DNA of 64,000 bases from Taiwanofungus camphoratus (taxonomy: Eukaryota > Basidiomycota > Agaricomycetes > Polyporales > Taiwanofungaceae). The notes under the pieces were generated by a model, which worked only from the letters and a program-made list of their open reading frames with translations, did no database searches and was not told the DNA's origin. Shown piece by piece: positions 1,591-58,200 of the stretch. How positions within the stretch are numbered: the stretch's first letter is position 1; each line of letters starts with the position of its first letter. The position numbers were made by a program, and so were the translations under genes. Where the stretch lies: contig CP021220.1 of assembly GCA_003999685.1 (NCBI GenBank), positions 496,001 through 560,000 on the forward strand, read 5' to 3'.

Positions 1591-2909
1591 ATGGCCTTCG
1601 CTGTTGTGCTTGCCTCTCGCCTCCGCTCCTTCTCTCCCTCACCTCACAATTTGTCTGTTGACTCGAGGGTTGAGAGCGCAAGTATAGCATCGTCACAGGG
1701 TGCGTGCTCTAAGACGTTCCCTGATTCCCTACCATAACGCTCATATCATCCTCTTTTTGTAGACACATGTGCCTCTTCTCTAGGGAGCTCTTCACTGAGT
1801 CCTTCTCTTGACTCCCGCTCGTGTGTCTCAGAGCCGGGGTCTCTGCCGTCGACATACGAATCTAATCGCATGCGACGGAATGAGCACCTTGCAGTCCTAC
1901 TACCTAAGCGTCTATGGAAAGTAAGTTTGAACTTTTGTGTGTTGGCATCTGTGACCACAATAACACGTGATTCCTCATTTCCGTCGTTGCACAGCCCGAC
2001 GCGCAGGCGTCCTATTGTGATATCTTTCTTTGCCATAAGAAGTTCTCGATTTGGGAGCGAAGACATGTTAGTGGGATCTATCTATCATATGTTCCAAATC
2101 TCCGTGCTCACCGTACCGTGTTAACTTGTAGCATTGTAGAAAGTGCGGCGGTGTATTTTGTGCTCAATGCACCATGCATATGACCGCGCTCCTTGATACG
2201 TCAAATTTAGAGTTTTTCCATCCTCCCCGAGACGTTCCTATTGCGGCGTTTGATTCTCCTACATCACCGGTAGTCCCATCAAGGGTCTGTGACGATTGTT
2301 GGGATCAGATTCACGGAGCTCGCACTCCTCGTTTTCCTATGATCAAACTGTCGGCGCCAGTAGCGGTGTTGAAAGATTTGAAGGAGTCCGACTCGAGTTC
2401 ATCATCTGTTGCATCTTCCTTGTCGACACCATCTGATGGCTCCGCATTCATCCGGCGCTCCATACGTCGCGTACAGACTTCACCTCGTATACCCGCGTCC
2501 CCGCTCCGTTCGCCGATTCCGATGCCACAGTCTGTCACAGGAGTTCATGTTGCAGACAGTGAGCCCTCATTCGGTGAGCTAGAGAGTTATCCCCTTGCCC
2601 GTGCTAGCACCATTTGCAAAGCATCTGGTGGTGGCCGATGGAAGCCCGAACCTTGTAAGAACTTTGTTGGGTACCGGATACCTGGCAGCAAGGCAGCCTA
2701 CGAAATCGAACTGGAGCGGGAGGAAGAGGAATACCGCAGACGTCGCACGAATCCTATCATCAGAGATGGAGGTATGTGTGCTTCAACTTTTGTGAGGAAT
2801 CTTGAACTCAAAGATATTCATTTGGCTTGATGTAGATATTCAGACTCGTGCTCCTCGCGAACTTGAGCCTCGCTCTCCCGCCGGCCCAATTCGGTTCTCT
2901 ACTTTTTAA
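1591..2909 (+). CDS. FYVE zinc-finger protein
   Basis: Five exons (1591-1699, 1763-1920, 1995-2066, 2132-2771, 2836-2909) join in phase to about 350 residues. A FYVE domain lies at about residues 85-165: WKPD (the WxxD element), a CX4C first zinc pair as in many fungal FYVE domains, RRHHCRKCGG (the basic RRHHCR signature that binds phosphatidylinositol 3-phosphate) and a last CDDCW pair. The remaining C-terminal half is Ser/Pro-rich and ends in a charged Glu/Arg stretch. No RING, ankyrin, VHS or kinase domain is present, so it is neither Pib1, Upa1, Vps27 nor Fab1 in architecture. FYVE proteins of this kind sit on early endosomes or vacuole membranes; the precise role here is unknown. The Upa2-like gene follows in the same direction, 549 bases downstream. 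The start is supported by the upstream TATA-like box. Confidence 0.85.
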
Positions 2910-3458
2910 TCTTGTTGATTGTTGATTGTAAGATTATGCCTTGTTAATACCCTGACCTTACCCACTGCCGTGCATTCTGTTGTCGATACCTACCTCACCT
3001 TACTCATTTTTATACCGCGTATTATTGTTCTGTGATCAGAGCTTCATGTCATATACCTTGCTGTTAGTGTACCATTGTTGTTAATACCTTGTATTTTTTC
3101 TGCAGTTGTTCATGTTGTTAGCTATAATTGTTGTGTCGGTTCTTGGTGGCTGAATAGACTCTTGCTCTGCTGGGTGTTCTGTAACCTGCCCACGGAATAG
3201 ATACCTGTGCCAGCGCGACATTTCTAAGGCCAAATAGGCAGTGGCCTGAGAAGCCAATTTGCGCGTGAACCACGTGGCGTGAGTGCCGATTGGATTTTAG
3301 TACTGCTGTTTCTCCTCGTCGTCGGACAGGACGCGCTATACCACCCGTCCCAGGTCCTTGATACCCTCCATTTCAACTGGCCTCCCATCTCTGAGGCCAG
3401 TGTCCTCGTGTCTACCCTACACCATCATTTCTAGAGCTGGTGCCGCATAGTTCAAGTC
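2910..3458. other. Intergenic region, FYVE to Upa2-like gene
   Basis: T-rich sequence after the FYVE stop, probably its 3' UTR, then pyrimidine-rich sequence close to the ATG at 3459 that probably holds the promoter and 5' UTR of the next gene. No ORF, RNA gene or repeat was seen. Confidence 0.5.
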
Positions 3459-6400
3459 ATGGCGATGCAACCTCGTCAGCAGTTATCGAGGCTACTCATT
3501 CCTCCAAACCTCAATCTTCAGCAGCCAGTCGCTTTTGGCGACAATGCGCCTATGTTTTCGCCTGGTCTTCCTACATCTTTGTCTCAAAGCATGCATCCTC
3601 CATTTGCTTTCAACGTGCCGAATCCTCTGCAAACTCCCATGCAGCCCAGCTTCTTCTCCCAACCTCCAGGCGCGCCAGGGCGGCCACCTCTTCACAGAAG
3701 CCAGCCTAGTGTTGCACACCTGGCAGCGGCAGGAATTTTTCCACCCGCTATGCCAATGACGCCCTTAGGCCAGAATGGGTTCCCCAACCCGATGCTTGCT
3801 GGCATGCAGCCCTTCGGTCAACCTTTCGCGCCGCGGAATAAACGATCGGGTAGCATAAGCGTAGGCGGACCACCGAAAGCGGTATTAGGTGGCCCGCAGC
3901 GCAAAGTGAGTCCCTTACCTCCAGCCGCCGCGACACCTCCAACGGCTCCTGCGACAAAGACGAAAAAAGTGGTGGTGAACTTGCCGCGCGAAACGATAGA
4001 GCCGGAAGGAGAACAGGTTCCAGCGCGTCCACCCTGGGCCAGGACGCCGTTGCGACCCTCTTCCCTACCGGAACAAGTTGATGTGCAACCGCCTGAGGTT
4101 GCGACGGCCGAGTCTTATCCACCAGATAGTTGGAGATATAATCTGCCGAATACAGTGGATGTATTTCTACCTGGCAAGGTTTGTTTGTTTGTTGCTGCCC
4201 TTTTTCTTTGACATTGAATGCATCATCGATCTTCGAATCTTTCGACGACGATTTCATGTCCGATCGATATTCTAGGCTGCTTGGAACTCCATCAAGCAGA
4301 GGATCATTGAAGAGAAGCTGGAGAGACTTGGCGTTGAAAGGGGATCGGGAAGCTCGGTGCCTCATATACATGCACCTCACGCCCGTGCTGCATCGGTACG
4401 TTGGGAGCGTGTGCTACACGTTCTCACAGCGATCTGATACTGGGCCGCAGATATCCTCCCCCGCAGATCCTGCCCTTCTCTTTTTCAAATTAAACAAGCT
4501 GCAGCAGTCGCAGGCAGCATCGTCATCCAATTCCTTATCGACATCGCCGCAGCCGCCTCTTAATTTGTCCCCATCTCCGAACCAGGTACCTCCGCGCTTC
4601 CAAAACCGGCACGGACACAGTATGTCACTTGCGCAGCCATCTTCCTACCAATCGCAGTCGCCTGTATACAACCCCGCTGCTGCCTTCAATCCGTTCGGGC
4701 CCAGCGCGACATTGGGCTCAGATCAGATATTTACCAGGATCTCTAATGTTCCTCTACCCGCATCAGTTGATAATATCCATGCACCGCAAGGTCGTACGCC
4801 GGCAAACTTTGCGTCTCTGGCACCCCCTCAGCCACTCTCAAGGCCAGAAAGCGGTCCGGACTTCATGCGAGGTTTTGGGTTAGATATCACTGAAGAAGAA
4901 GAAGAACCCGAAGAAGGGGCACTTGCCCGAGTAGAGGTACAAGAAGAGCGTGCTGAAACGGAGGTTGGGACAGATGCCACTCAGGAAGACAATGAGGATC
5001 TTGATCAAGACGGAGTCAGTACGGTGGCGCAGAGTCGAATTCATTCTCGACATGTATCTCGACTATCTGCCGCTTTGTCGTTAATGTCTGTGGGTGGGAC
5101 GACAGAACCTCTATCTGCTACCGCTGTCATGCCGCCGACGGAGGTTGTGCCGCTTCGAAGTCCTGTGGGAGGTGTTGAGGTCGATGACATGGATCAGGAT
5201 GCTGTTGGAGAGTGGACAGGCTCAGAAGATCTGCCAATTGTGGGTGAGACGTCGGAAGACGAGGTTCGTATCTTTTGTGTCAGCTTTCACTCAGGACTTC
5301 ATTACGAACTCACTTATGTAGAGTATTGGCGAGTGGTCTAACCCGTCGGATGAAGAGCGAGCTCGCCAACAGCGCCTTGAGCGGCGTATGCTCCGTCGGG
5401 CTAAGCACGTGCAGCAAGATCTAGAGACACCGCGTAGGCTGCCTAATTTCCCTCCTCCTCCCGAGACGCTACCGCAATATGTGCCTGGGCCAAAGGATGA
5501 CGACATTGTCTCGAATCCCAGTGAAGAGGGTCATGACCAGGATGCATACATATACACCGAACATGGCGGACACTACTCAAGACCGTCATCTCATCTTAGT
5601 GGTCAGGGTCGGCCACTGCCTCCTCTACCTAATTCGCGACCAGGATCTGCTCCGTACTCTTATCATGATCCTGCACTAGCGCACTCCCGGGAGGCGTCGG
5701 AACAGTATCTTCAGCCTGGCGGTCTCCACCCTCGCCCTGTACAGCCATTGACATCGACGTCGCGTGGAGAGTCTCTCAACCCTTTGGCAAAGCCTTTCGT
5801 CTTTGGTGTGAATCGCCAGTCAGATGCCTGGAGCTCAGCCTCAGCCGTCCAGCAACTTGTGACGACGCCTGTGCCTTTGCCGAACTTAGGCCATGCCCGC
5901 ACCCCTTCATTGGGGAAACCGCTCAATGCTGCAGCACAAGAGTTCAAACCCATGGGATTCACATTCCGACCGCCTCCAGGTGTACCACAGTTGACGTTTG
6001 AAGCTCCCCAACAGGTGCCTCGTCCATTGCCCACCCCTCCGGCCTCTATTCCGGAGGTAGTGAGGGCCACTCAAGGCAGGGAAAAGAGGCAACGTCGTCT
6101 CTCGAGTGTCACTCTTGACGGTGAAGATGAGGATGGTGTAAATACCATGTCCTCCTTCAAATTCCCCCCTTCCGGTGAGACTCTCAGAGCTGTGTCTGCT
6201 CCCGTCAGTCCTCCAGCCAGTGTGTTAGGCAAGGACACTTCAATGAATGCTGCAGCGAAACCGTTCACGTTCTCTGGCTTCTCTAACACGCTGCCAAGCA
6301 TCTCGCAACAGAAGGATACGCTCGCGCCTGTGAATGACGAGAATCAACCACTTGTGCAGAGCCCAACTGCGGATGGCACAGGCGCGGAATCTGCGCACGA

Positions 6401-9400
6401 GCTGCCTTTCCCGCCAACTATGAAATCGAAGAGAGCACCGATTCCTTTGGACTTCAAACATCCCGTTTCAACTAACACAGTACCCGCCGGCTTGTTCAAA
6501 GCTCTTGTCAACGCTGATGGCGATGACAGAACACGCCGGGCGGTCCGATCCCGGCTCAGTTCCAGGGATATCTACGAACACAGTCCTCGGCCATCTCTCG
6601 ATGATCTTAATGTTCCTCCGATCTCGCAGAGAATTTCGCGCAATCGTCTGTTCACAGATCCTGGATTACTGGAGTCATCGCCGAAGCATGGTGACATTTT
6701 CAGCCCAGAGAGGCCGGTGCGACGTTCATCACTGCCTCCTAGGCACCATGGGCCCGATTCATCAATTTCGGACATATCTGTTCCTCCAGTGAACCTTTCA
6801 AGACGCATTGAGATGCAACAGTACGAACAGAGGCTTGAAGATCTTCTTGACGAGAAGTTCGAGGACATGAAACAGGCATTGCAGGACTTCAAGCAGGGCT
6901 CAGATGGGCAGACATTGGATTCTTCTACGGAAGCTATGCTATCCGAGGTTGTCTCTCTTTTCCGTGCGCAATTGCAAGAGTCGGCTGCTCGGGGGTTGGA
7001 TGACAGCCAGATGGATGCTCGTGGTGAACTTGACTTCGAAGTCATCAAGGGCATAATTGAGCAGAAACAGGCTGAAACATGTGCACTCATTCAGAGAGAC
7101 ATTGCAGAACTCGCGAAGACCCGAGAGCAGGACCCTGTCCTCATGCGGATTGCTGAGGATCTTACCAATAGAACAGTGAACGCTGTTGTTACAGCGACAT
7201 CCCAGCTCGCCTTGCGACTGCAAGCAATGGAAAACTCGAGGCCTTCTCCGATTTCTGAGAGGGACGCTACCGTGCGGGAGTTCATGAATGCAATTGTGCC
7301 TCATCTTGCTGCTCTTCGTCCTGAACCGATCGATCATGAAGGCCTTACCGCCCAGCTCACTCAAGCAGTCAAGCCGCACATATCTCAACTCATTGATCTG
7401 GCCTCGGATAAGCGTGAGACTGCAGGTCTCATCGTGGACAGGCTTGTGCCTCTCATGCCTTCTTTACTTGCCACCACTCCAGACATCGATATGGAGCTTA
7501 TTGTTGGCCGCTTGACGACTGAAGTACGGAAGATTGTGGCACCGCTGGATGCGCATGAGATCAAGGAGCAAGTGTCTGATCTTGTAGTGGAACGTCTCGA
7601 TTCTCGATTGGCCGTACGAGACAGGGCATTCAACGTGGATGTCCTTACTGAGAAGGTAGCAGAAAGTATCCGTGGTATTCTAGCCCCTGTCCACGAGCTC
7701 CAAGCGGCCGTGGAGATGCTTGGACGAAAGGAACAGGTGCCCGTTGTTTCAAAGCTGGATTTGTCCTCAATTCGTAAAGAGGTGTCTAGTCTCCTGTCTG
7801 ATCTTCCTGAACGACTGGCTGCCGCGACAGAGGCGCTCGGCGGGGCTCAAGCTGAATTTAAGCAGAAAGTAGACGCTACTGCACAGAATGCTCCAATGGC
7901 GAAGAGTATTTCTCAGATCGAGGCCACCGTTAATGGGGTTGCGCACGACCATGAGAAGTTAGTTGCTCAGAATCAAGAGTTCTCCGATTTCTGCCAGGAC
8001 ATCATCAAACATATCAATGCGCTACCTGAAGCAATGGTTGAAGCTACCAGAATCCTTCAGAACGTTCATGCCGATTTCGCAGCTCGTGACACGTCGCAAA
8101 AGGACGCTGAGGAAATACGAAGGCTCATGACTACGAGCGCTGAACTTCAGGTGCAACTAGCAAAGGCCCGCGGAGCACATGGCCAAGTCCGAGTTGAGAA
8201 GGATATGCTCGCCGAGCGGTTGAAGAGTACTGAAGTTGAGAGAGATCGTTTGTCATCCAAGGTGGAGGAATTGCAACTGTCAGCTTCTGCTAAGCTGGCG
8301 GAAGCCACTACTACAGAAGCGAAGAATATTGAATTAGAGGAAGCCCTTGCTCGTGCTCTTGACCGGCTCAAGGCTGCAGATGTACAGGCGCAATCTGACC
8401 ACGAACGTATCTCCCAACTGGAGGCGCTCAATCGGGAACTGGGGACACAGAAGCAACAGTTGAAGTCCCAGGTAAGCCATCTTTCATGGAATCCACGTGT
8501 GGCCTCCATTAACGCTCTCGTTAGGTTGATTCCCTTGACTTGCGGGTTGCTTTCATCACTAGGGAGAAGGATAACATTGCTGAGGACCTTGTCCTTCAAC
8601 GCAGGCAGAGTGAAGAGTTAATCTCACAACAAAGCCATTGGGATGAACTGCGTCAAGCGTCAGAGCAAATCCAGATGCTCACGAAACTGGTCGGTCAACC
8701 TGACACTGAAGAAATCAAAGATTTGCGACGCATTCGCGACCGCAGCAAAGTCCTCGAAGGCGAACATGCAGTTCTCCAACGGCGCCTGAAGGAATACGAG
8801 AACAAAATGGCCAATAACGAGAAGGTCGCTCAGGCGTCTAGACAATCCCTCTCTCAAGCGCAGCAGCGCGCGATTGAGTGGGAGAGACGTGCCAAAGATT
8901 ATGAGAGTGAACTTCGGTCGACACAGACGAAACTCGACCAAACAGAGCAAGCGCAGGCACAGTTGGATGCAGACTACTCACTCGTAAAGTTGCAGCTGGA
9001 AGAAAGAGACGCAGAAGAACGCTTGGACAAGGTGAGGTTGCATTCTGATTGACCTCAGGTTTTACGCTGATACCGCTCTAGGACCGGCAGAGCAAACTGC
9101 GTGATCAAATCGCCTCACTCGAGGGGCAAGTCGCGCGTCTGCAGGCCGAGACAGACCAAGCGAAGAAAGCTGCAGCTATTGCGGCAGTCGCACAGCCAAC
9201 TGCGCGCTATCAGAATGGGCACATCCGCCCTCCGCGTCCGGACTCGCGCGCGAGTACCATCTATGCTGAGAGTCGCACTGGTACTCCGACAGCACAGTTC
9301 AACGGCTCACGCGGGCCTAGCGTCAGGGTGGCGACGCCGCCGCAGCCTTCGGTGTGGGATTCAATACACGCACCGGCCGGGCATGAGAGCCCGATGCGTC

Positions 9401-9519
9401 TGCCAATGACCCCCAAGGCTAAGCGACCTCCTTCGTATTATAATCGTCAGATACCATCTCCTACTCCGAGCAATGTTTCGGCCGCACCGACGCTCGGGAA
9501 TGACGGGTGGTGGTCATAG
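3459..9519 (+). CDS. Upa2-like multi-PAM2 coiled-coil scaffold protein
   Basis: Six exons (3459-4178, 4276-4395, 4451-5263, 5322-8471, 8525-9031, 9082-9519) join in phase to 1,915 residues. The first ~1,040 residues are Pro/Ser-rich and disordered. They carry three PAM2-like motifs: SLNPLAKPFVFG (about residue 701), LNAAAQEFKPMGF (about 752) and SMNAAAKPFTFSGF (about 857). PAM2 motifs bind the MLLE domain of poly(A)-binding protein; the second is closest to the consensus LNxxAxxFxP. Residues ~1,045-1,800 form a long coiled coil rich in Glu, Gln and Lys. The protein ends NDGWWS, with GWW at 1912-1914. PAM2 motifs, long coiled coil and terminal GWW together are the known architecture of Ustilago maydis Upa2, a core part of mRNA transport on moving endosomes. 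Orthology is inferred from architecture, not alignment; Upa2 has four PAM2 motifs and I see three here. Confidence 0.75.
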
Positions 9520-9838: not shown

Positions 9839-11730
9839 CTATTGGGACCGTGATTGTGGAGACGGCCAGATCCAATTCTTCACGGCTTGTACAGCCTCCT
9901 GGGGGTCTTCCGGTAGTCTGTCGAGAAGAACTATAAGTCACTTTGTGAGGAGGTCAATTCGATCACGACATACTTGATCTTCGGTCCCCACCGCTTGTCT
10001 CTATCCTGCTGGAAGAAGCGTGGGACATGTACCTGTCCACTTTCATCCCGCTTCCGGCGCTCCTCGCGCTGCCCCTCTTCAACTGCTGTCTTCGACTCCG
10101 TCGCGGCCTCCATGTCCCTCGCGTCGATCGCCTGCGTCAGCTTCGACCACAGGCTGCACCAAGCGATTACCACGTGAAATGCAGGAAGGCTATGAGACCC
10201 AGGTGAGAGCGCTGTGAAGTTGCACAAACGCACCGACGCGACTCATTCAGCTCCTGCTCCTCTTCCGGCGCGACCCACTTCGGCGCGATCTTGTCGCCGT
10301 CTTTCAGTACGTCGAACAGCACGCGCTCTCCTCCAGCCTGACGCGCCAGACATACAATGACATGGTTTTGGGTCAGAGACAGACATCATCGACACGCACA
10401 GCCGACGCGCACCTTTTTCTTGTACTTCATCACGGTACTCCACTTCCCGCACAGCTCGCCGCTATCTGAGCTCCCCCGGCGTATCCGCCCCGCGATCCCA
10501 TTATATGTCCCGGAGAAGTACCCCTGCGCCACGGTGCCTCAGTGACGGCGCAAGGGTGTGTAGGGACGGAAACGGCTACCTTCGTCTTAAACTGGATGTC
10601 CGCATAGAACGCCGTCCGGTCGTTCTTCGCCGTGCACGAGTCGCCGAGCTCGAGCACCATCTTGCCCCACAGGATACCGCGCGCATACATGTTGGGCATC
10701 GAGATCACGTACTCTGTCGTGGCGTATCTATAAGCGCTCCAATCGGGATGTATCATTGAACGACCCACCGCCGTCGTCTGGCCGCCCCATGAGGTAGATG
10801 CGGTTCTCGCCCTCCATGGTCGTCGAGACGCTGTTGCCCAGGAACTTGGACTTGGGCCTGAGCTCGCCGACGATTGCGACCTTGTTCGCGGGCGAGACGT
10901 AGTAGAAGGCGGACACCGGCGGGTGATGCGATACTGGTGTTGCAACGAGCGCCGGATGGTCAGTCGAGTCCGGTTGTAATGGAGATGGGGACACGGGCTC
11001 ACCTTGCTCGGCAATGTAGAAGCCCTGCGAGCCGTCGGGGTAGTCATATCTACAGCGGAAGAACTCGCCGAGGATGGGATTGTAACTACGGCAGGCGGGG
11101 CTCTGTACACACATTCTCGCCGCAAGACAGAAATGTATATCACTCACGGCTTCTTTACGCCCTTTGGCTTTATATGCCAGCCCGAGAGATAATATTGCAA
11201 TACGCGGAGGAACCGCTCTTCGGGGTCATCACATTGTTCAGCACTGCCAGAACACAAGATCTAATCATTGTGTACAGAGGAAAGTAGACGCACTTGCCCG
11301 AAGATGAGGTCGGGGTGCGACATGAAGTCGGTGATGCGCTCGAGCATGCTACGCGGCTCGAGCACGAAGGTGGGGAACGTGACCTTCGAGAGGTCCATCC
11401 CGACCCTGCGAAACAAAGGACATCACCATCACCAACGCGCCTCCCGATGCACGCAGCATACGCGTCTCGGCGGCCACGCCGTCGCAAGTGAAGCACACGC
11501 ACCTGAGTTGGGAGATCAGCGATGTGATGATGGAGCCCTCCTTCTCGTCCCTGTATTCAACATCGTCATCAGCATCGGCGGGGCTAGAGTAGTAGAACAT
11601 GGCGCAGCGGGAACGCGACGGACAAGATCGATGTGTCGTCTGGCTCTGTATCCTCGGGGATTTTGTCCTCTAGGGAACTCCCGCGTGGTCTGTGGACCTT
11701 GGAGCTCGCCTGATTGAATAGACCCATCAT
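9839..11730 (-). CDS. Oxysterol-binding-protein-related lipid transfer protein (Osh6/7-like)
   Basis: Eleven exons on the minus strand (11730-11624, 11550-11503, 11405-11298, 11243-11148, 11085-11003, 10933-10769, 10713-10580, 10523-10413, 10337-10234, 10153-9974, 9917-9839) join in phase to 404 residues. The protein is almost only the ORD domain, without PH, ankyrin or FFAT segments. It shows a lid region ([15 protein letters not shown]), [11 protein letters not shown] and the family signature SHHPP. This short form and the sequence around the lid resemble yeast Osh6/Osh7, which exchange phosphatidylserine for PI4P between ER and plasma membrane; the substrate here is inferred. The start uses the first of two adjacent ATGs. 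The third intron must begin with GC (donor GCAAGT at 11297) to keep the frame into [19 protein letters not shown]. The gene is convergent with the Upa2-like gene. Confidence 0.9.
11244..11297 (-). other. GC-AG intron in the Osh gene
   Basis: Donor GCAAGT, acceptor GGCAG. A GT donor four bases downstream (GTGCGT) shifts the frame to an immediate stop, whereas the GC donor continues into conserved [15 protein letters not shown]. Confidence 0.75.
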
Positions 11731-15057: not shown

Positions 15058-17355
15058 ATGTTCACGCCGACGGCGGCTCCCCGCCACTTATCCTCAGACC
15101 CTAGTTTCTTCTCCAAATCCAAGTCGTCTAAGCCGGGCGCGTCGAACACGAGTCCTGTCACCGTTACGACGCGTGTGGTCACTGTTCAGCGAGCCCCTGA
15201 TCCGCGACCAGACGTCACTGCGAGATCCGCCACTCCCGCCTCCTCCTCGTCGACACCCGGCCTCGAGCCTGCTAAGAAGCGCAAACTCGCGCAATCCGAG
15301 GCTCGCTCAACGAATGCCAAGAGACAACGCGTGTCTTCCTCAAATGCATCGCCGGCAAATGAAGCGCTGGCGAAGTCGCGTGGGTCGAGTTCCACGCCGT
15401 CTTCGCGGTCATCGGGCTCCAGTCGACAAGATTCTCTTTCTCGGTCACCTATGCCCCTGAAGCGATCCCTCGAAAGTCGGTCGCGTTCGACATCAGTTTT
15501 TGATGTCCCCGAGGCATCTGAGCCGCGAGAATGCTGGATAGAGGAAGATGGAAGACCGGGGCCCGGCTTTCTCACTAGTGAGGTCGTCGTACGAGATCTC
15601 ATGAAAACGTACAAAGCGTGTAAGTTCTGATGCATTTCTCTTGTACGCTGTCGCTCAACCAAATATGCATTTCTCTCCAGTTTTCTCCAATCCTCACGAC
15701 CCCGAAGACAAGTCCTTTGAGCCACACCCCACCGACTACCCAGTGGCTGAACTCGAATATCCGAATACGGGCGCATCTGAAAGGTGATTTGAAGTGATAT
15801 CTGGCTGTCTTGTCTCTAATTTTATTTCAGGTATACCTTATTGGCTCCGAAAGACAAGGACCACTATAATCCCATCATGTGCCTTGAAAGTACTTTACAT
15901 ACCATAGTGAAATGTACGGAAGCCATCCTTATTATCTCCACAGATCTATTGGAACTGAGAGCTGTGTAGGTTATCTTACTCCCACTCAACAGGCTTTGTT
16001 TGGGACTCTCCCAAGTACTAATATTCCTGATGAAGACGGTCCTCACTTTGTCTCACCAGCTCTACCAGTATCAATTATCTGTACCACTGACAATGCATCA
16101 TCTCCTGCTGTTTCTGCCACAACTGATCTAATGTCTCCACCATCCTCTGCTGGTTCTCCATCATCTTCTACTGGTTCTCCATCATCTGCGTTGTCTGACT
16201 CCACTTATTCGTCGTCAACATCCTTGTCATCTGGGTCCTCAACATCTTCGCTCTCGTCTATCCTATCATTATCCTCTCTATCAGAGCTATCTTGTTACGC
16301 ATCGCAAACCATGACTTATGGCCCTCCTACTGTAAATTATCTTCGACTTCTCCGACGCGCTATTAACAAGCACGACGGGCCGCTATTTTTGAAAGTCATG
16401 ACTGCCATTAATGCAATCCTCCGATCTCTCAAGTATCCTCAGGTACCTATGGATCCCTTTGAACCCTCTCCTCCGAATTACTTTAGACAAACTACTAAGA
16501 CATGGACAAGCATACCGAAAGAGATCATCATGCGGATCATTGAAGAGACATATCAACGAGCAGTAGGACCACACGTGTCGACGCTAAATCGCTACGAGGC
16601 GTTCTCGTCCGAAGTATACGGAGAACTTATGCCGTCGTTTGTCTCACAAATCATCCAGGCAACCGGTCTTAATGCGGACTCACTCCTTGTTGACCTTGGC
16701 TCGGGCGTAGGCAATGTCGTGCTGCAGGCGAGTCTGCAGACGGGGTGCAAAAGCTTTGGCGTAGAGATCATGCCTGCGCCAGCGAAGATCGCGCGGAGCC
16801 AGCTCGAGCAGTTCAGAATGCGATGTCGAATGTGGGGCGTTACAATGGGTGAGGTAGAACTGGAAGAGGGCGACATGTTGAAGAGTCGCAGGGTGGATGA
16901 GCTAGTTTCAAAGGCGGACGTAGTGCTTGTGAATAACAAGGTGTTCCTGGAGTCACGTAAGGCATTTTCTTATGTTGAGTATCAAACATTGATCAGACTT
17001 TCGGACAGTTAACGAGGCGCTGCGTCCAAAGTTTCTGGATCTGAAAGAGGGTGCCATCGTCGTTTCGTTGAAGCCTTTCGTTTCTTCACTTCGGGTGACT
17101 GAACGAAATGTAAGTCTCCAGTATGCTTTGTGATTACTCTTTAGTTTGACGCCAATTGTGCGATTACAGCTTGATGATATCAGCTCAATATTCCAAGTTC
17201 AAGAGAAACAATACCATCCTGGAAGCGTCTCATGGGGCAACGGCGGTGGCTCGTACTTCCTGCATCGCGTGGACCGCGAGGGGTATGCAGATATCAAACA
17301 GCACTTTGAAAAATCTCGGACAGTTTATTCTCGCAGCACTAGATCAAGGCGTTGA
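15058..17355 (+). CDS. DOT1: Histone H3-K79 methyltransferase Dot1
   Basis: Six exons (15058-15619, 15681-15783, 15831-15913, 15970-16956, 17009-17109, 17170-17355) join in phase to 673 residues. The first ~200 residues are Ser/Arg/Lys-rich and basic, as expected for nucleosome/DNA contact. The C-terminal third is the DOT1 fold. LESTLHTIV leads in, YRAVGPH-like YQRAVGPH and EVYGEL follow, then motif I DLGSGVGNVVLQ (from about residue 490) binds S-adenosylmethionine. VEI, VLVNNKVF and SWGNGGGSYFLH complete the pocket. The enzyme methylates Lys79 of histone H3 and acts in gene silencing and DNA-damage checkpoints. Unusual is a Ser/Thr-rich run of roughly 60-70 residues near residues 285-350 (16090-16300), between the lead-in and the core. 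The start ATG was chosen because the frame upstream lacks conserved sequence and enters the DBP3 start. Confidence 0.93.
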
Positions 17356-45393: not shown

Positions 45394-48300
45394 CTACCGA
45401 GATCCAGACGGGGAACTCAGGAGCATCGGCTCGAACTCCACGGGAGTGTCGTCCTCCGACCGCGGTTTACGCTTGACACTCGGACGCTTTGTGAGCATCA
45501 CCTCACCCAGCTTGCTCTCCTTTTGTAGCTCAGTTGGGCTAGCGCCACGCTTTGTCCCGCCCGGCGACAGTGACGAAACAGGCAACGGGGTAACATCGAT
45601 ATTAGTATTGTCTCGCATTAGGTCCGAGAGACTGCGTTTCCGAGATACCTCCTTCTCGCTGAACACCAGCGGTCTCCCTAGACTGCGTCCCAGTCCCGAG
45701 CTTAGCATGTTATCTGTAAATCCCCCTTCAACTCCCACGTTCTTGGCGTCGATCTCCAGCACGGCCAACTTCTTGTCCTTGGCTGCGGCATGACCGCCTT
45801 CACGCCCCATCTCAACCTCACCCCCATCACGAACAGCAGGGCCTCCCGCGGCCTCTTTCTCCCTCTGCCTCTCCTCATCCACTATCATCAACGCGCCCTC
45901 GATGACGGCCCGATGCACAAACACATACTGCCGTAGGCTTTGGCATAGACTCATACGCTGTTCCCGCATGTCCTCCACAACTCTTCGGATTGGCTCGTCG
46001 TACGTAGACAGCAGCGGGGGAGATGTGTCCTCATGGAGCCTGCGAGGCTGCGCATAGTCGAATGTCCGCCCACGCTCTGGTTGCTCTGGAGTGACGTCCC
46101 TTTCAGCGGCTTCAGCCCCTGCATTATCCGTGGCTTCAGGGGATTTTGAGGAGCGGTTGTTCTCCCGCGGTGGTGAACTTGAGGTACGCACTTCTGATCT
46201 CCACATAGCTAATCGACTTGAGTTTGTGGTATCTGGCTTGCGAGTACCGGAATCGTCCGCCAGCTTGGTATCCTTACTAGACGGCGACGGTAAGGAGAAC
46301 GTCCGTGTCCTGGCCTCTGCATCAAGCGATGTCGTACCGTCAGCTGCTAAGCCCTGGGGAGGACTTTGGCTCGTGCGCAGCAACATGCCCGCTGTCCTGT
46401 CTGCGATAGCTGAAGACAAGTTGGATGAGCTCCCGCTTTGGCTAGATGGCGGACTCGCGGATGAATAAGAGCGCGACCGTGCTATCGACGTTGATTCTGC
46501 TGAGCGTGACCCCGAGCCCGTGCCAGAATGCGAGCCAGACGGTGCAACGTAAGAGTCTGAGCTGCTTTCTGAATCTCTGCTGGACACGACTATGTCTGGA
46601 GTCGGGACACCGGGCGTGGTGGCGAATGTGCCAGTCGTAGTAGCAGAAGACCATCTATGCAGTGTAGCTCGCCGCACTTCGTCCACCAGCTCTGGGGATG
46701 CCGGCAGCACGGTCCGAGGGAGTCCCTTGGCGGTTGTAAAAATAGCAGCACCTTTGAGAGTCGGGGGTTGCGCCTTGGCATTCATCGGTGCCTCCTTGCT
46801 GTCATCGATTTTCATAGGCGCCGTCTCAGCGAAGCCGGCAACGCGGACATGCACCTCGCTCTCTCCGGCCGAGACCGGCACTAACAGTCCTGGCACATCC
46901 GGCACAGTCGATGCCCCGACACCGCCGCCAGACGATGGCGGGCTTGGGCTTGGATCGACCTCCATCGCATCTCCGCGGCTACTGCTTGCGCGGCTCCTTG
47001 TACCGGGACTGGATCTCGACCTGGAACCGCTTCCAGCCACACTAGACGATGCCGCAGCTGCAGCTGGAGTCTGCGACTCCTTGCGCTCCCTCATCTCGCG
47101 ACGCAATCCATCAAGGACAGCATCGACGGCAATGAAGCCGCCCGTGCGCCCGACACCCGCCGAGCAGTGTAGCAACACCGGCGCAGTTCCAAGTGCGTGT
47201 CGCGCGATGCCCGAAGTCGGTTCCACATCGTTGTTCTCACCCTGCACACCCTCCACGACCGTCCTCGGATACTGTGGATCCCTGGTGTTTATCGAGGCCT
47301 GGGGGGTCTGGGGCACGTCAAGATTCGTCGGACGTGGACTAGGCCGTAGAGGGCCCTCGCCCCAGCGCTTGTCACCTTCACGGCGCGTTTGCGCAACGAT
47401 CTCCTCTACCTCGCGAATGAGGCCAAGCACGCCCCGCGGGTCCTCAGGGACGTTGAAGTCGGGCCAGTCGAGGTACTGCAGCTGTGTGACCGCGCGGGGA
47501 GGCGCATCGGGATAGCCAGTATGCGTTAGCTCGAACACACGGCGGATCGTGTCGGGGTCGCTCTCATCCTCGCTCTCCGCGGCGTTCCTGTCCTTGTCCC
47601 TGTCTCTGTCTTTCAACTTCACCTTGGCGTGGCGCGCCTTCGCCCTGTGCTTCTGCTTCACAGGCGCGACGTGTGCGCCGAAGAATCCGCCGTTCATCTC
47701 ACTCTCACGCCGGCGGCGTTCCCGCTCAGGCGTGTCGTTCGTCGTCAGGAGGCGCAGACGCAGGGGTCCGTACGAGCCCTCGGCCCAGTACTTGCCGCAC
47801 TTGACCGTCGCGCCCTCGATCTCGCGCGTGAGCATTACGATCACGTGAACGTTCTGCTCCCAGCAGAGCCTGCGCGCGATAAGCGAAGAGGACAGGGTTA
47901 GTACAGTCCATAACGCAATGCCAGGTGCCGTATACACGAATAAGAGGACTCACGTCCAAAAGTCGTTGAACGTCGCGGGCAGCGGGCCTTGCGTTGCGAT
48001 GTATCGCTTGGTGGTGCCAAGCGGCTGCACATAGCTTGCGTTCATGTAGTCATCATCCTCCGGATGTGCCTTGAGCAGGCGCACTCGTGCGTGTTCGAAA
48101 GGCCATATATTGCGGTACCTGCGTGCAGGGATAGGCACAGAAAGGGGAGGAGAGAGGATTGAAAGTCAGCGATGGATCCAGAAAGCGAAGAAGCGTGGAT
48201 ATATAGGGGCTCGAGGAATGCACTTCGATCGGGCGGTCATACTTGGATAGCACGGCCAAGCGTGACTAGCGATGGCCAGACCGCGGAGAAACGGCAGAAC

Positions 48301-55204: not shown

Positions 55205-58200
55205 TCACCCATCCAGGAATTCCCGCCTTATATCCGCAAACACCGCGGCACCCACGCCGAACAGACCCAGCTGCACGACGCACGCGGCAGTCTGGCGATA
55301 GATCGTCTCGAGCGCGGGGTGAGCAGGGCGGCCTTGCGATTCTGGAAAGGAAAAGTTGAGCGAGTTCGTCAGTGTCAGTGACGGACCACGAAATCAAAAC
55401 ATTGCACATCCGAACTGACCCAATATAGCCCGATTGACTTCCCCTGCCAAGTCGGCTCGCGCACCCTGTCCCGCCATCGCGCCCACCTCTCCGCCGGCGC
55501 GCACCGGATCGTCATATGCGACCACCCCGAACGTGCGCTTGAGGTGCGCACGTACGCCCGGTCGTGCGTCTGCTTTGTATTCCGCCTCGAGCTCCTGACC
55601 ATATGCAAGCGCACTGTGGAGTGCGGACTTGGCTAGCTCAGAAGGTGTGAAAGTGGGCGTGGAGAAGGACGCGGGAGTGGAGGCAGAAGAAGGAAGTGTT
55701 GGTGAAGGGACAGACACAGAGGAAGAGAAGGGCGTGGGTATCGGGTGGGAGGAGGACGCAGGAAGGGCCTCGGGCGATGGATCGTCCACATCCATCGCGC
55801 CCTCTGCATCCGCGTCTTCATCCCCCAAGCTGTCCCCCCCCTTCTCTCCTCCGTCCTCGGCCCCCGCCTCGCCATCCATCCCGCATGTCTTCTCCTTTCC
55901 CACTACAACTCCATCCTTCTCCTTCTCGCCCTCGCGCCCCTTCTCCTCCTCCACGCGCTGGAGCGCTTCGCCCGCTTGCAGGACGAGCTCCACAAACTTC
56001 CTGCATCGTAGCTGAAACCGGAGCAACCCGTTCTGCGCCTTGAGCGCATCGGGGTAGTGCGTCTCTAGTCCGGCGAGCGCCGCGTCGATGTTGCCACCGA
56101 GCACCGAGTGCAAAATGGAAAGGCGCGCCTGCAGGTCGCGTGTCTCGGGGTCGGCAGCATCGTCCGTATCCAGCTCCAGGTCAGAGCCAGAACCATGACT
56201 GCTAGCATCCGTGCTAGCACCATTACTCGGGCCTGCTGGAATGGCCTCCACCGGAAGCTTGCTAGAAGACGACGAGGCCTGTGGCCCGTCATCGGTGTCC
56301 ATCGCAATCTCCACAGGCTCCTTCTTCGGAATAAGGGGGCCCACGCCTCCTCCTCGTGCACACTGAGCACGGAACGCCCGCGCCGTGCACGCGTACCCAT
56401 GGTGGGCAAGATACGCTAGCACCAGTCTCCTCAGCGGTGCCTTCGACTCCTCCGCCGCCTCCCAGCTGCCCTCCTCCTTCGTCCCACCTACCGTACCTAA
56501 CCCCAGCCCTGACCCTGTTCCCGGAGCAGGTATAGAAGGACTTGCGCGCAGCCCGACGACACCCCAGTCCACCGGTACACGCATCGCGCCCGCCCATACC
56601 GCGTCGCGTTGCGCGCGCACGTGGTCTGCGATGGCGTAGCGGAACGGCGCGCTCCCGAAGTTTGCACGCACAGCTTCGGTTGTGTGGCGCATCCCGATCG
56701 CGGGGAAGAGCGAGGGCGCAGTCGGCGATGGTGAAGGGAGATTGTCGAAGAGCATGCCTGATGGAAGGGGAGGAGCGAACAGTGAGCTGGGTGTATCCAC
56801 TGAAAGTAGAGGTAGACGTACCGAGGAAAGCGCCATTCTTCGTGTAGAACGCCTTGTTCTGACTGAAGTCGATGCCACACCCGATCACGTCACCCGCTAA
56901 GTGCAAAGAAAGTCAGCAAAAGGATCAACTGTAGACAAGAGTCCTCCATGGTAGGAATTGTCGAGTTGGTCAACCGCCTGGATGAAGAAAAGGGTCACCT
57001 ACCGTCGAAAGTAGGACCATACGGGATCCCGTCTCTCTGCCCCGGGAAGCTCCATCCATCGTCAGCATGGTACCCCCATGAGTGCTTCTCCCACCCAGGG
57101 AGGCGCGACAGACGTACGTCCCCTGCTGAGAACCTGTAGACACAAATATAATCCACATCCTCGATTGAATAAGCGTGCCAAAAAGATAGGTGCTTACCCA
57201 ATGCTTATGTGTCTGATCATCCAGACAGCAACGATGCAGTATCAGCATACGGAGAACGTCAAGATAGGGAAAGCGACATACCCTTTCTGACCCCGATGGA
57301 GGATCTCAACTTCATAGTAATATATCCCGCATGCTGGCGGAATGGGGTGGTTCGCACGTGCCGCCGCCGAGTCGCGATCGCCCGTGCATGATGGGCCTAC
57401 AAGCATCACACGATCAGCATGTACCCATATCCGTTCTCATCACAGCAGCCCAGGATCTCTCATAATGAGCCAGAAGATGGAAGACATACCCTGGAATACC
57501 AACTCGCGCCCATCCGCGCTCACATGCAGGAGTGGATTGCGGTCCTGGTCGCTCCATCTCGTGGGGAGCCTCAACACCGGATTCGGCGACAGAACACCCA
57601 CACCTCCTGTGCCGCTCGCCCCAGGACCAGCGTGAGGCGGGGGGCTAGGGCTGGGCGTCTCTTCAGATTCAGAATCGAGCACGGGAGTAAGCGAGCGGCG
57701 AAGGTACGGGTACGGCGCGGGGAGCGGGGGGGGTGTGGCTGTAGCATGACTATAGACTGAGTGGGAGAGGGGAAGTACGATGGGGTCCTGCGCGGCAGAG
57801 GCATAGCGCGAGGGCGGGAGGGACGGCGCGGCATCGGTGTGAAGGAAATTGCGGAGTGCGGAGTACTCAAGGTACTCGGGGCGCTGAAACGCGTGCGGTG
57901 CGGGCGCATGAGTGTGCGAATGGACGTGCGAATGGGCGTGCAGCGCAGCAGGTGCGGTGAAGCCGAATGATGGCATGTGCGAGGCGGCAGGTAGGGACAC
58001 GGAGAGCGGGCGCGAGGTGGACGTGCCGGAGCTCGGCGTGCGCAGGCTCGCACTGAGGCGGCGCGGGCGAGCGAGGGAGGTGGACGTAGGCGGCGGCACA
58101 GGAAGACATGCGGCAGGGTCGCGTGGCGGGTTGGGGGAGCTTGTTGCGCGGATAATGCGGGGCTGGAAGGCCGGGGTCGCAGTGGTAGCCTCTGCATTGG

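Follow-up and report, generated by a model that had tools for sequence, protein, structure and literature searches.

The gene at positions 3459-9519 of a 64,000-nucleotide stretch of Taiwanofungus camphoratus DNA (the window; contig C1, 496001-560000, within a 33.2 Mb genome of 15 contigs) raises the question of whether this fungus encodes an Upa2-type scaffold for the transport of mRNA on endosomes. Upa2 of Ustilago maydis is described as a scaffold that dimerises, contacts Pab1 through four PAM2 motifs and depends on a C-terminal GWW for its binding to endosomes (PMC9249222), and its deletion is reported to halve the processively moving mRNAs (PMC8004493). The original prediction, made by reading the window alone, named the gene the orthologue of Upa2 on the strength of three PAM2-like motifs, a coiled coil of roughly 700 residues and the terminal residues NDGWWS, and proposed that this fungus, too, may transport mRNA on endosomes. 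A PAM2 cluster, a coiled coil and a GWW end are all found in the gene as modelled here.

The gene model was built by hand and is predicted from open frames and GT..AG intron borders rather than from transcripts. It comprises six exons on the forward strand encoding 1915 residues (Table 1), separated by five introns of 97, 55, 58, 53 and 50 nt, every one of them in phase 0, and its start is the earliest ATG downstream of an in-frame stop. The segment encoded by exon 1 is probably disordered. Pfam searches of four of the six exons (1, 3, 4 and 5) gave no family above cut-off. PAM2 motifs, which serve for binding PABP, are carried by eRF3/Sup35, Ataxin-2/Pbp1 and other proteins; the protein encoded here resembles these in having the motif, and differs from them in that those four exons match no Pfam family above its cut-off. 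Exon 4 has no paralogue in its own genome at E <= 0.01, and no relative in collections of prokaryote and virus contigs, a comparison that is uninformative for a fungal gene. The segment aa 1038-1601 likewise found no relative in the PDB at E <= 0.01.

Table 1. Predicted features of the Upa2-like gene, in window coordinates.
Feature	Residues	Position	Strand	Basis and remarks
Exon 1	aa 1-240	3459..4178	+	Open frame, first ATG 3459, donor GTTTGT; P+G-rich
Exon 2	aa 241-280	4276..4395	+	Flanked on both sides by phase-0 GT..AG introns
Exon 3	aa 281-551	4451..5263	+	Phase-0 introns
Exon 4	aa 552-1601	5322..8471	+	Open frame, donor GTAAGC; PAM2 cluster and start of coiled coil
Exon 5	aa 1602-1770	8525..9031	+	Open frame; coiled coil, heptad signal
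Exon 6	aa 1771-1915	9082..9519	+	End of coiled coil, tail, GWW, stop
Weak fourth-site candidate, AFGDNAPMFSP	aa 25	3531..3563	+	Loose pattern only; no L-N pair
PAM2-type site 1, LNPLAKPFVF, LNPLAKPFVFGV	aa 703	5775..5810	+	Regex and shuffles; ends FxF, not FxP
PAM2 site 2, LNAAAQEFKP, LNAAAQEFKPMG	aa 752	5922..5957	+	Regex and shuffles; canonical LNxxAxEFxP
PAM2-type site 3, MNAAAKPFTF, MNAAAKPFTFSG	aa 859	6243..6278	+	Regex and shuffles; FxF
Helix-prone, proline-poor region	aa 1041-1808	6789..9195	+	Crosses introns 4 and 5
C-terminal GWW, then Ser and stop (protein end GNDGWWS)		9505..9513	+	In-frame reading

Directly upstream of the Upa2-like gene lies a gene for a FYVE zinc finger protein (2132-2910, forward strand; PF01363, 36.1 bits), possibly a second PI3P-binding protein, distinct from the Upa1-like protein encoded on contig C2 that is described below. 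A gene for an oxysterol-binding protein lies directly downstream (10728-11225, reverse strand; PF01237, 56.7 bits). A scan of ten ORFs of the window identified a DOT1 histone methylation protein (15888-17009, forward), a protein-tyrosine phosphatase (45397-47949, reverse) and a CTLH-domain protein (55397-56884, reverse); the remaining seven gave no match.

Pattern searches of the Upa2-like protein returned three [LM]NxxAxxF sites, of which the middle one alone is canonical and the other two end in FxF. The original prediction had read the sequence correctly on both points, having noted three PAM2 motifs rather than four and the unusual ending of two of them. For the wider pattern [LMIV]NxxAxxF, the three occurrences compare with a mean of 0.033 when the whole protein is shuffled (three or more in 0 of 5000 shuffles) and of 0.042 when it is shuffled in 60-residue blocks (three or more in 0 of 20,000). 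These are also the only places at which the pattern occurs in the six-frame ORFs of at least 100 residues in the window (31,585 residues, the gene itself included). The PAM2 profile scan proposed with the original prediction gave no hit above the cut-off of 20 bits, which speaks against it: Pfam detected site 1, at 12.3 bits within exon 4 and at 17 bits on the isolated peptide, and reported neither site 2 nor site 3 when these were presented as peptides. The assignment of the sites to PAM2 is therefore made from the motif statistics, and not from Pfam. Looser patterns match at aa 25 (Table 1) and at aa 86, neither of which is matched by Pfam PAM2, and the first of these candidates for a fourth site may be a chance occurrence.

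The FxF endings bear on how much of the Upa2 function has been retained. The gene might be Upa2 by descent and yet bind Pab1 through the middle motif only, the FxF sites having decayed or acquired another partner, with Pab1 recruitment weaker than in U. maydis. The absence of the final proline from sites 1 (KPFVF) and 3 (KPFTF) favours such a change, and the loss of PAM2 motifs would be tolerated, as U. maydis Upa2 supports transport even when all four are mutated (PMC9249222). Against this, the phenylalanine, on which MLLE binding is described as chiefly depending (PMC9249222), is kept in all three sites, and the single site reported by the Pfam profile is itself one of the two that end in FxF. 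We consider this partial loss a possible but rather unlikely state of affairs, and favour the reading in which the protein would bind Pab1 through its cluster of PAM2 sites.

The C-terminal half of the protein differs markedly in composition from the remainder. Proline and glycine together make up 0-12% of each 50-residue block over aa 1051-1800, against 10-36% over aa 1-1050, and two proline-free runs extend for 206 and 148 residues. Windows that exceed the 95% null level of a simple hydrophobic heptad score are found mainly at aa 1301-1800. The coiled coil of some 700 residues thus stands as a helix-prone region (aa 1041-1808), but the better heptads span about 500 residues of it, and unevenly. 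This region corresponds to the long coiled coil of Upa2 and is predicted to mediate dimerisation.

The terminal NDGWWS was likewise recovered, being in frame with the intron 5 acceptor at 9081 and also with the next acceptor, at 9090. Use of an earlier AG, at 9058, would change the frame and would leave an intron of just 27 nt, and read-through of the intron leads to a stop (ORF 8525-9052). In random draws from the protein's own composition, GWW fell within the last six residues once in 200,000.

The proposed function was approached through partner genes in the same genome. Pab1 is encoded, with a canonical MLLE domain (PF00658, E 4.6e-18) that scores 88.6 bits to PDB entry 8s6u, polyadenylate-binding protein 1. 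The hunt for Rrm4 made use of an ELAV search (37 matches) and an RRM search (112 matches), of which part was inspected. Set aside by eye were loci that we took to be Pub1-like, Nsr1-like, Nop4-like, Hrp1-like, Hsh49-like, Gbp2-like (two), U1A-like, Mei2-like, Jsn1/Puf-like and Nrd1-like, and some that were left unnamed. Rrm4 was located on contig C8 (locus L053), where RRM matches precede an exon with MLLE domains. This exon matches PDB entry 7pze (E 2.7e-45) over MLLE1, MLLE2 and the beginning of MLLE3, and the end of MLLE3 matches 8s6n, an entry named RRM4 (E 1.9e-36), with 54 of 81 residues identical when compared with the genomic letters. We read 7pze as the C-terminal construct of U. maydis Rrm4 from the match of the 8s6n type, from its length of 379 residues and from the 380-residue construct described in PMC9249222.

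Pfam is less sensitive to this gene. It places one RRM above cut-off (36.3 bits), with the first RRM at 15.7 bits (cut-off 20.7) and the MLLE at 24.6 bits (cut-off 27), both below. A whole-genome Pfam MLLE search that matched Pab1 only had at first suggested that Rrm4 is absent, a conclusion overturned by the PDB matches; the profile missed it because the MLLE domains of Rrm4 have diverged and introns interrupt MLLE3. The genome is thus predicted to encode an Rrm4 with RRMs and a tail of three MLLE domains. The stretch ahead of the MLLE3 core is among the best conserved parts of the 7pze match. MLLE3 has been described as a seven-helix domain with extra helices (PMC12852828), and these should fall within that stretch.

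An Upa1-like gene was found on the minus strand of contig C2 (L017). Its product carries ankyrin repeats (Ank_4, E 1.1e-10), a FYVE domain (E 5e-10) and three acidic motifs of the form FxYPG (DEEFVYPG, EAEFVYPG and DDEFHYPG), which from their sequences agree with the published description of PAM2L as an acidic motif that has FxxP spacing and one additional tyrosine (PMC9249222). Translation of the loci examined gave 305,018 residues, a total in which overlapping loci are counted repeatedly, and in these the pattern [DE]FxYP occurs in this gene only. Two short stretches tested for a RING domain gave none, nor did a pattern search of the ORFs scanned show any PAM2 motif. Two N-terminal PAM2L motifs have been reported for U. 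maydis Vps8 (PMC12852828); in the T. camphoratus Vps8 gene (L058/L059), neither [DE]FxYP nor [DE]FxxP occurs in ORFs of at least 35 residues. Upstream of the Vps8 domain, on contig C4, lies an acidic segment, EEEEGFLYNG (L059 2955-2464, minus strand), that loosely resembles PAM2L. The Upa2-like protein has in common with Upa1 its short MLLE-binding motifs and an action on endosomes that is here predicted. Unlike Upa1, a FYVE/ankyrin/RING adaptor with both PAM2 and PAM2L motifs, it matches neither FYVE nor ankyrin nor RING in exons 1, 3, 4 and 5.

The architecture of the protein and the company of its partner genes, rather than any sequence match to U. maydis Upa2, make it very likely, in our judgement, that the gene at 3459-9519 is the Upa2 orthologue of T. 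camphoratus. Like U. maydis Upa2, it combines several PAM2 motifs with a long coiled coil and a C-terminal GWW, in a genome that also holds Rrm4, an Upa1-like protein and Pab1. It departs from the U. maydis protein, with its four PAM2 motifs, in having three clear sites, two of them FxF, and the two proteins are likened by architecture and not by sequence alignment. For this last reason an unrelated coiled-coil scaffold that has acquired PAM2 motifs, such as a protein of translation control, P-bodies or cell ends whose terminal GWW is a coincidence, has to be considered. The motif is not confined to Upa2: a whole-genome PAM2 search listed two other loci, the Upa2-like gene being absent from the list. 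One of them (L055) we take by eye to encode a Sup35-like N-terminus with PAM2, and the other (L056, contig C14 near 232397) is an open frame of 766 residues in which the PAM2-like site SSLNPSATPFTPPRGF scores 17.5 bits, below the cut-off. In U. maydis itself, 14 candidate PAM2 proteins have been listed (PMC4466420). What makes an unrelated scaffold improbable is that one protein unites a cluster of PAM2 sites, a coiled coil towards its C-terminus and a final GWW that is so rare by composition, and that Rrm4 and an Upa1-like protein are encoded in the same genome. That the motifs are chance products of a disordered, low-complexity protein, one rich in proline, serine and alanine that also matches looser PAM2 patterns, is nearly refuted by the block shuffles.

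As an Upa2 orthologue, the protein very probably helps to carry mRNAs on moving endosomes, and by analogy with U. maydis its mode of action can be outlined. It would be a long scaffold, disordered over much of its length, in which the C-terminal coiled coil mediates dimerisation. Its PAM2 cluster would bind the MLLE domain of Pab1, and hence the poly(A) tails of the mRNAs being transported, and the C-terminal GWW would hold it on early endosomes. Rrm4 would bind the mRNA and, with its third MLLE, dock onto the PAM2L motifs of Upa1, the FYVE protein, and the scaffold, placed beside Rrm4, would stabilise the transport mRNPs as they shuttle along microtubules. The suggestion that endosomal mRNA transport may operate in this fungus is supported by the Rrm4 gene with its MLLE tail, the Upa1-like gene with PAM2L-type motifs, FYVE and ankyrin domains, and Pab1.

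An Upa2 protein outside the smuts, to which the original prediction drew attention, was to be expected, and the suggestion that it is in itself new is not supported. Core components of endosomal mRNA transport have already been reported from Coprinopsis cinerea and Amanita muscaria (PMC8950801). Upa2 was evidently part of an earlier phylogenetic analysis, since PMC7550108 cites that analysis for the absence of both Upa2 and Rrm4 from ascomycetes, and the motifs of Upa1 have been compared with related sequences from Coprinopsis, Coniophora, Laccaria and Auricularia (PMC4466420).

The two FxF sites, which share the form N-x-x-A-K-P-F-x-F, could represent a distinct class, with another mode of MLLE binding or another MLLE as target, so that the contact of Upa2 with Pab1 would have changed in this lineage. 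The first and second MLLE domains of Rrm4 would be candidate targets, being described as orphans whose partner motifs are unknown (PMC12852828). We regard such a class as quite improbable. In the literature cited, which does not cover the original description of Upa2, we found no discussion of an FxF variant of PAM2, but we do not present it as unpublished. If the FxF sites did bind MLLE1 or MLLE2 of Rrm4, the scaffold would bridge Pab1 and Rrm4 directly.

T. camphoratus thus provides another genome, besides that of U. maydis, with Upa2-like, Rrm4, Upa1-like and Pab1 genes, in which MLLE3 and the PAM2L-type motifs appear to be kept. A further fungus thereby becomes available for tests of endosomal mRNA transport, and the FxF sites offer a natural variant with which to probe which features of PAM2 an MLLE domain requires.
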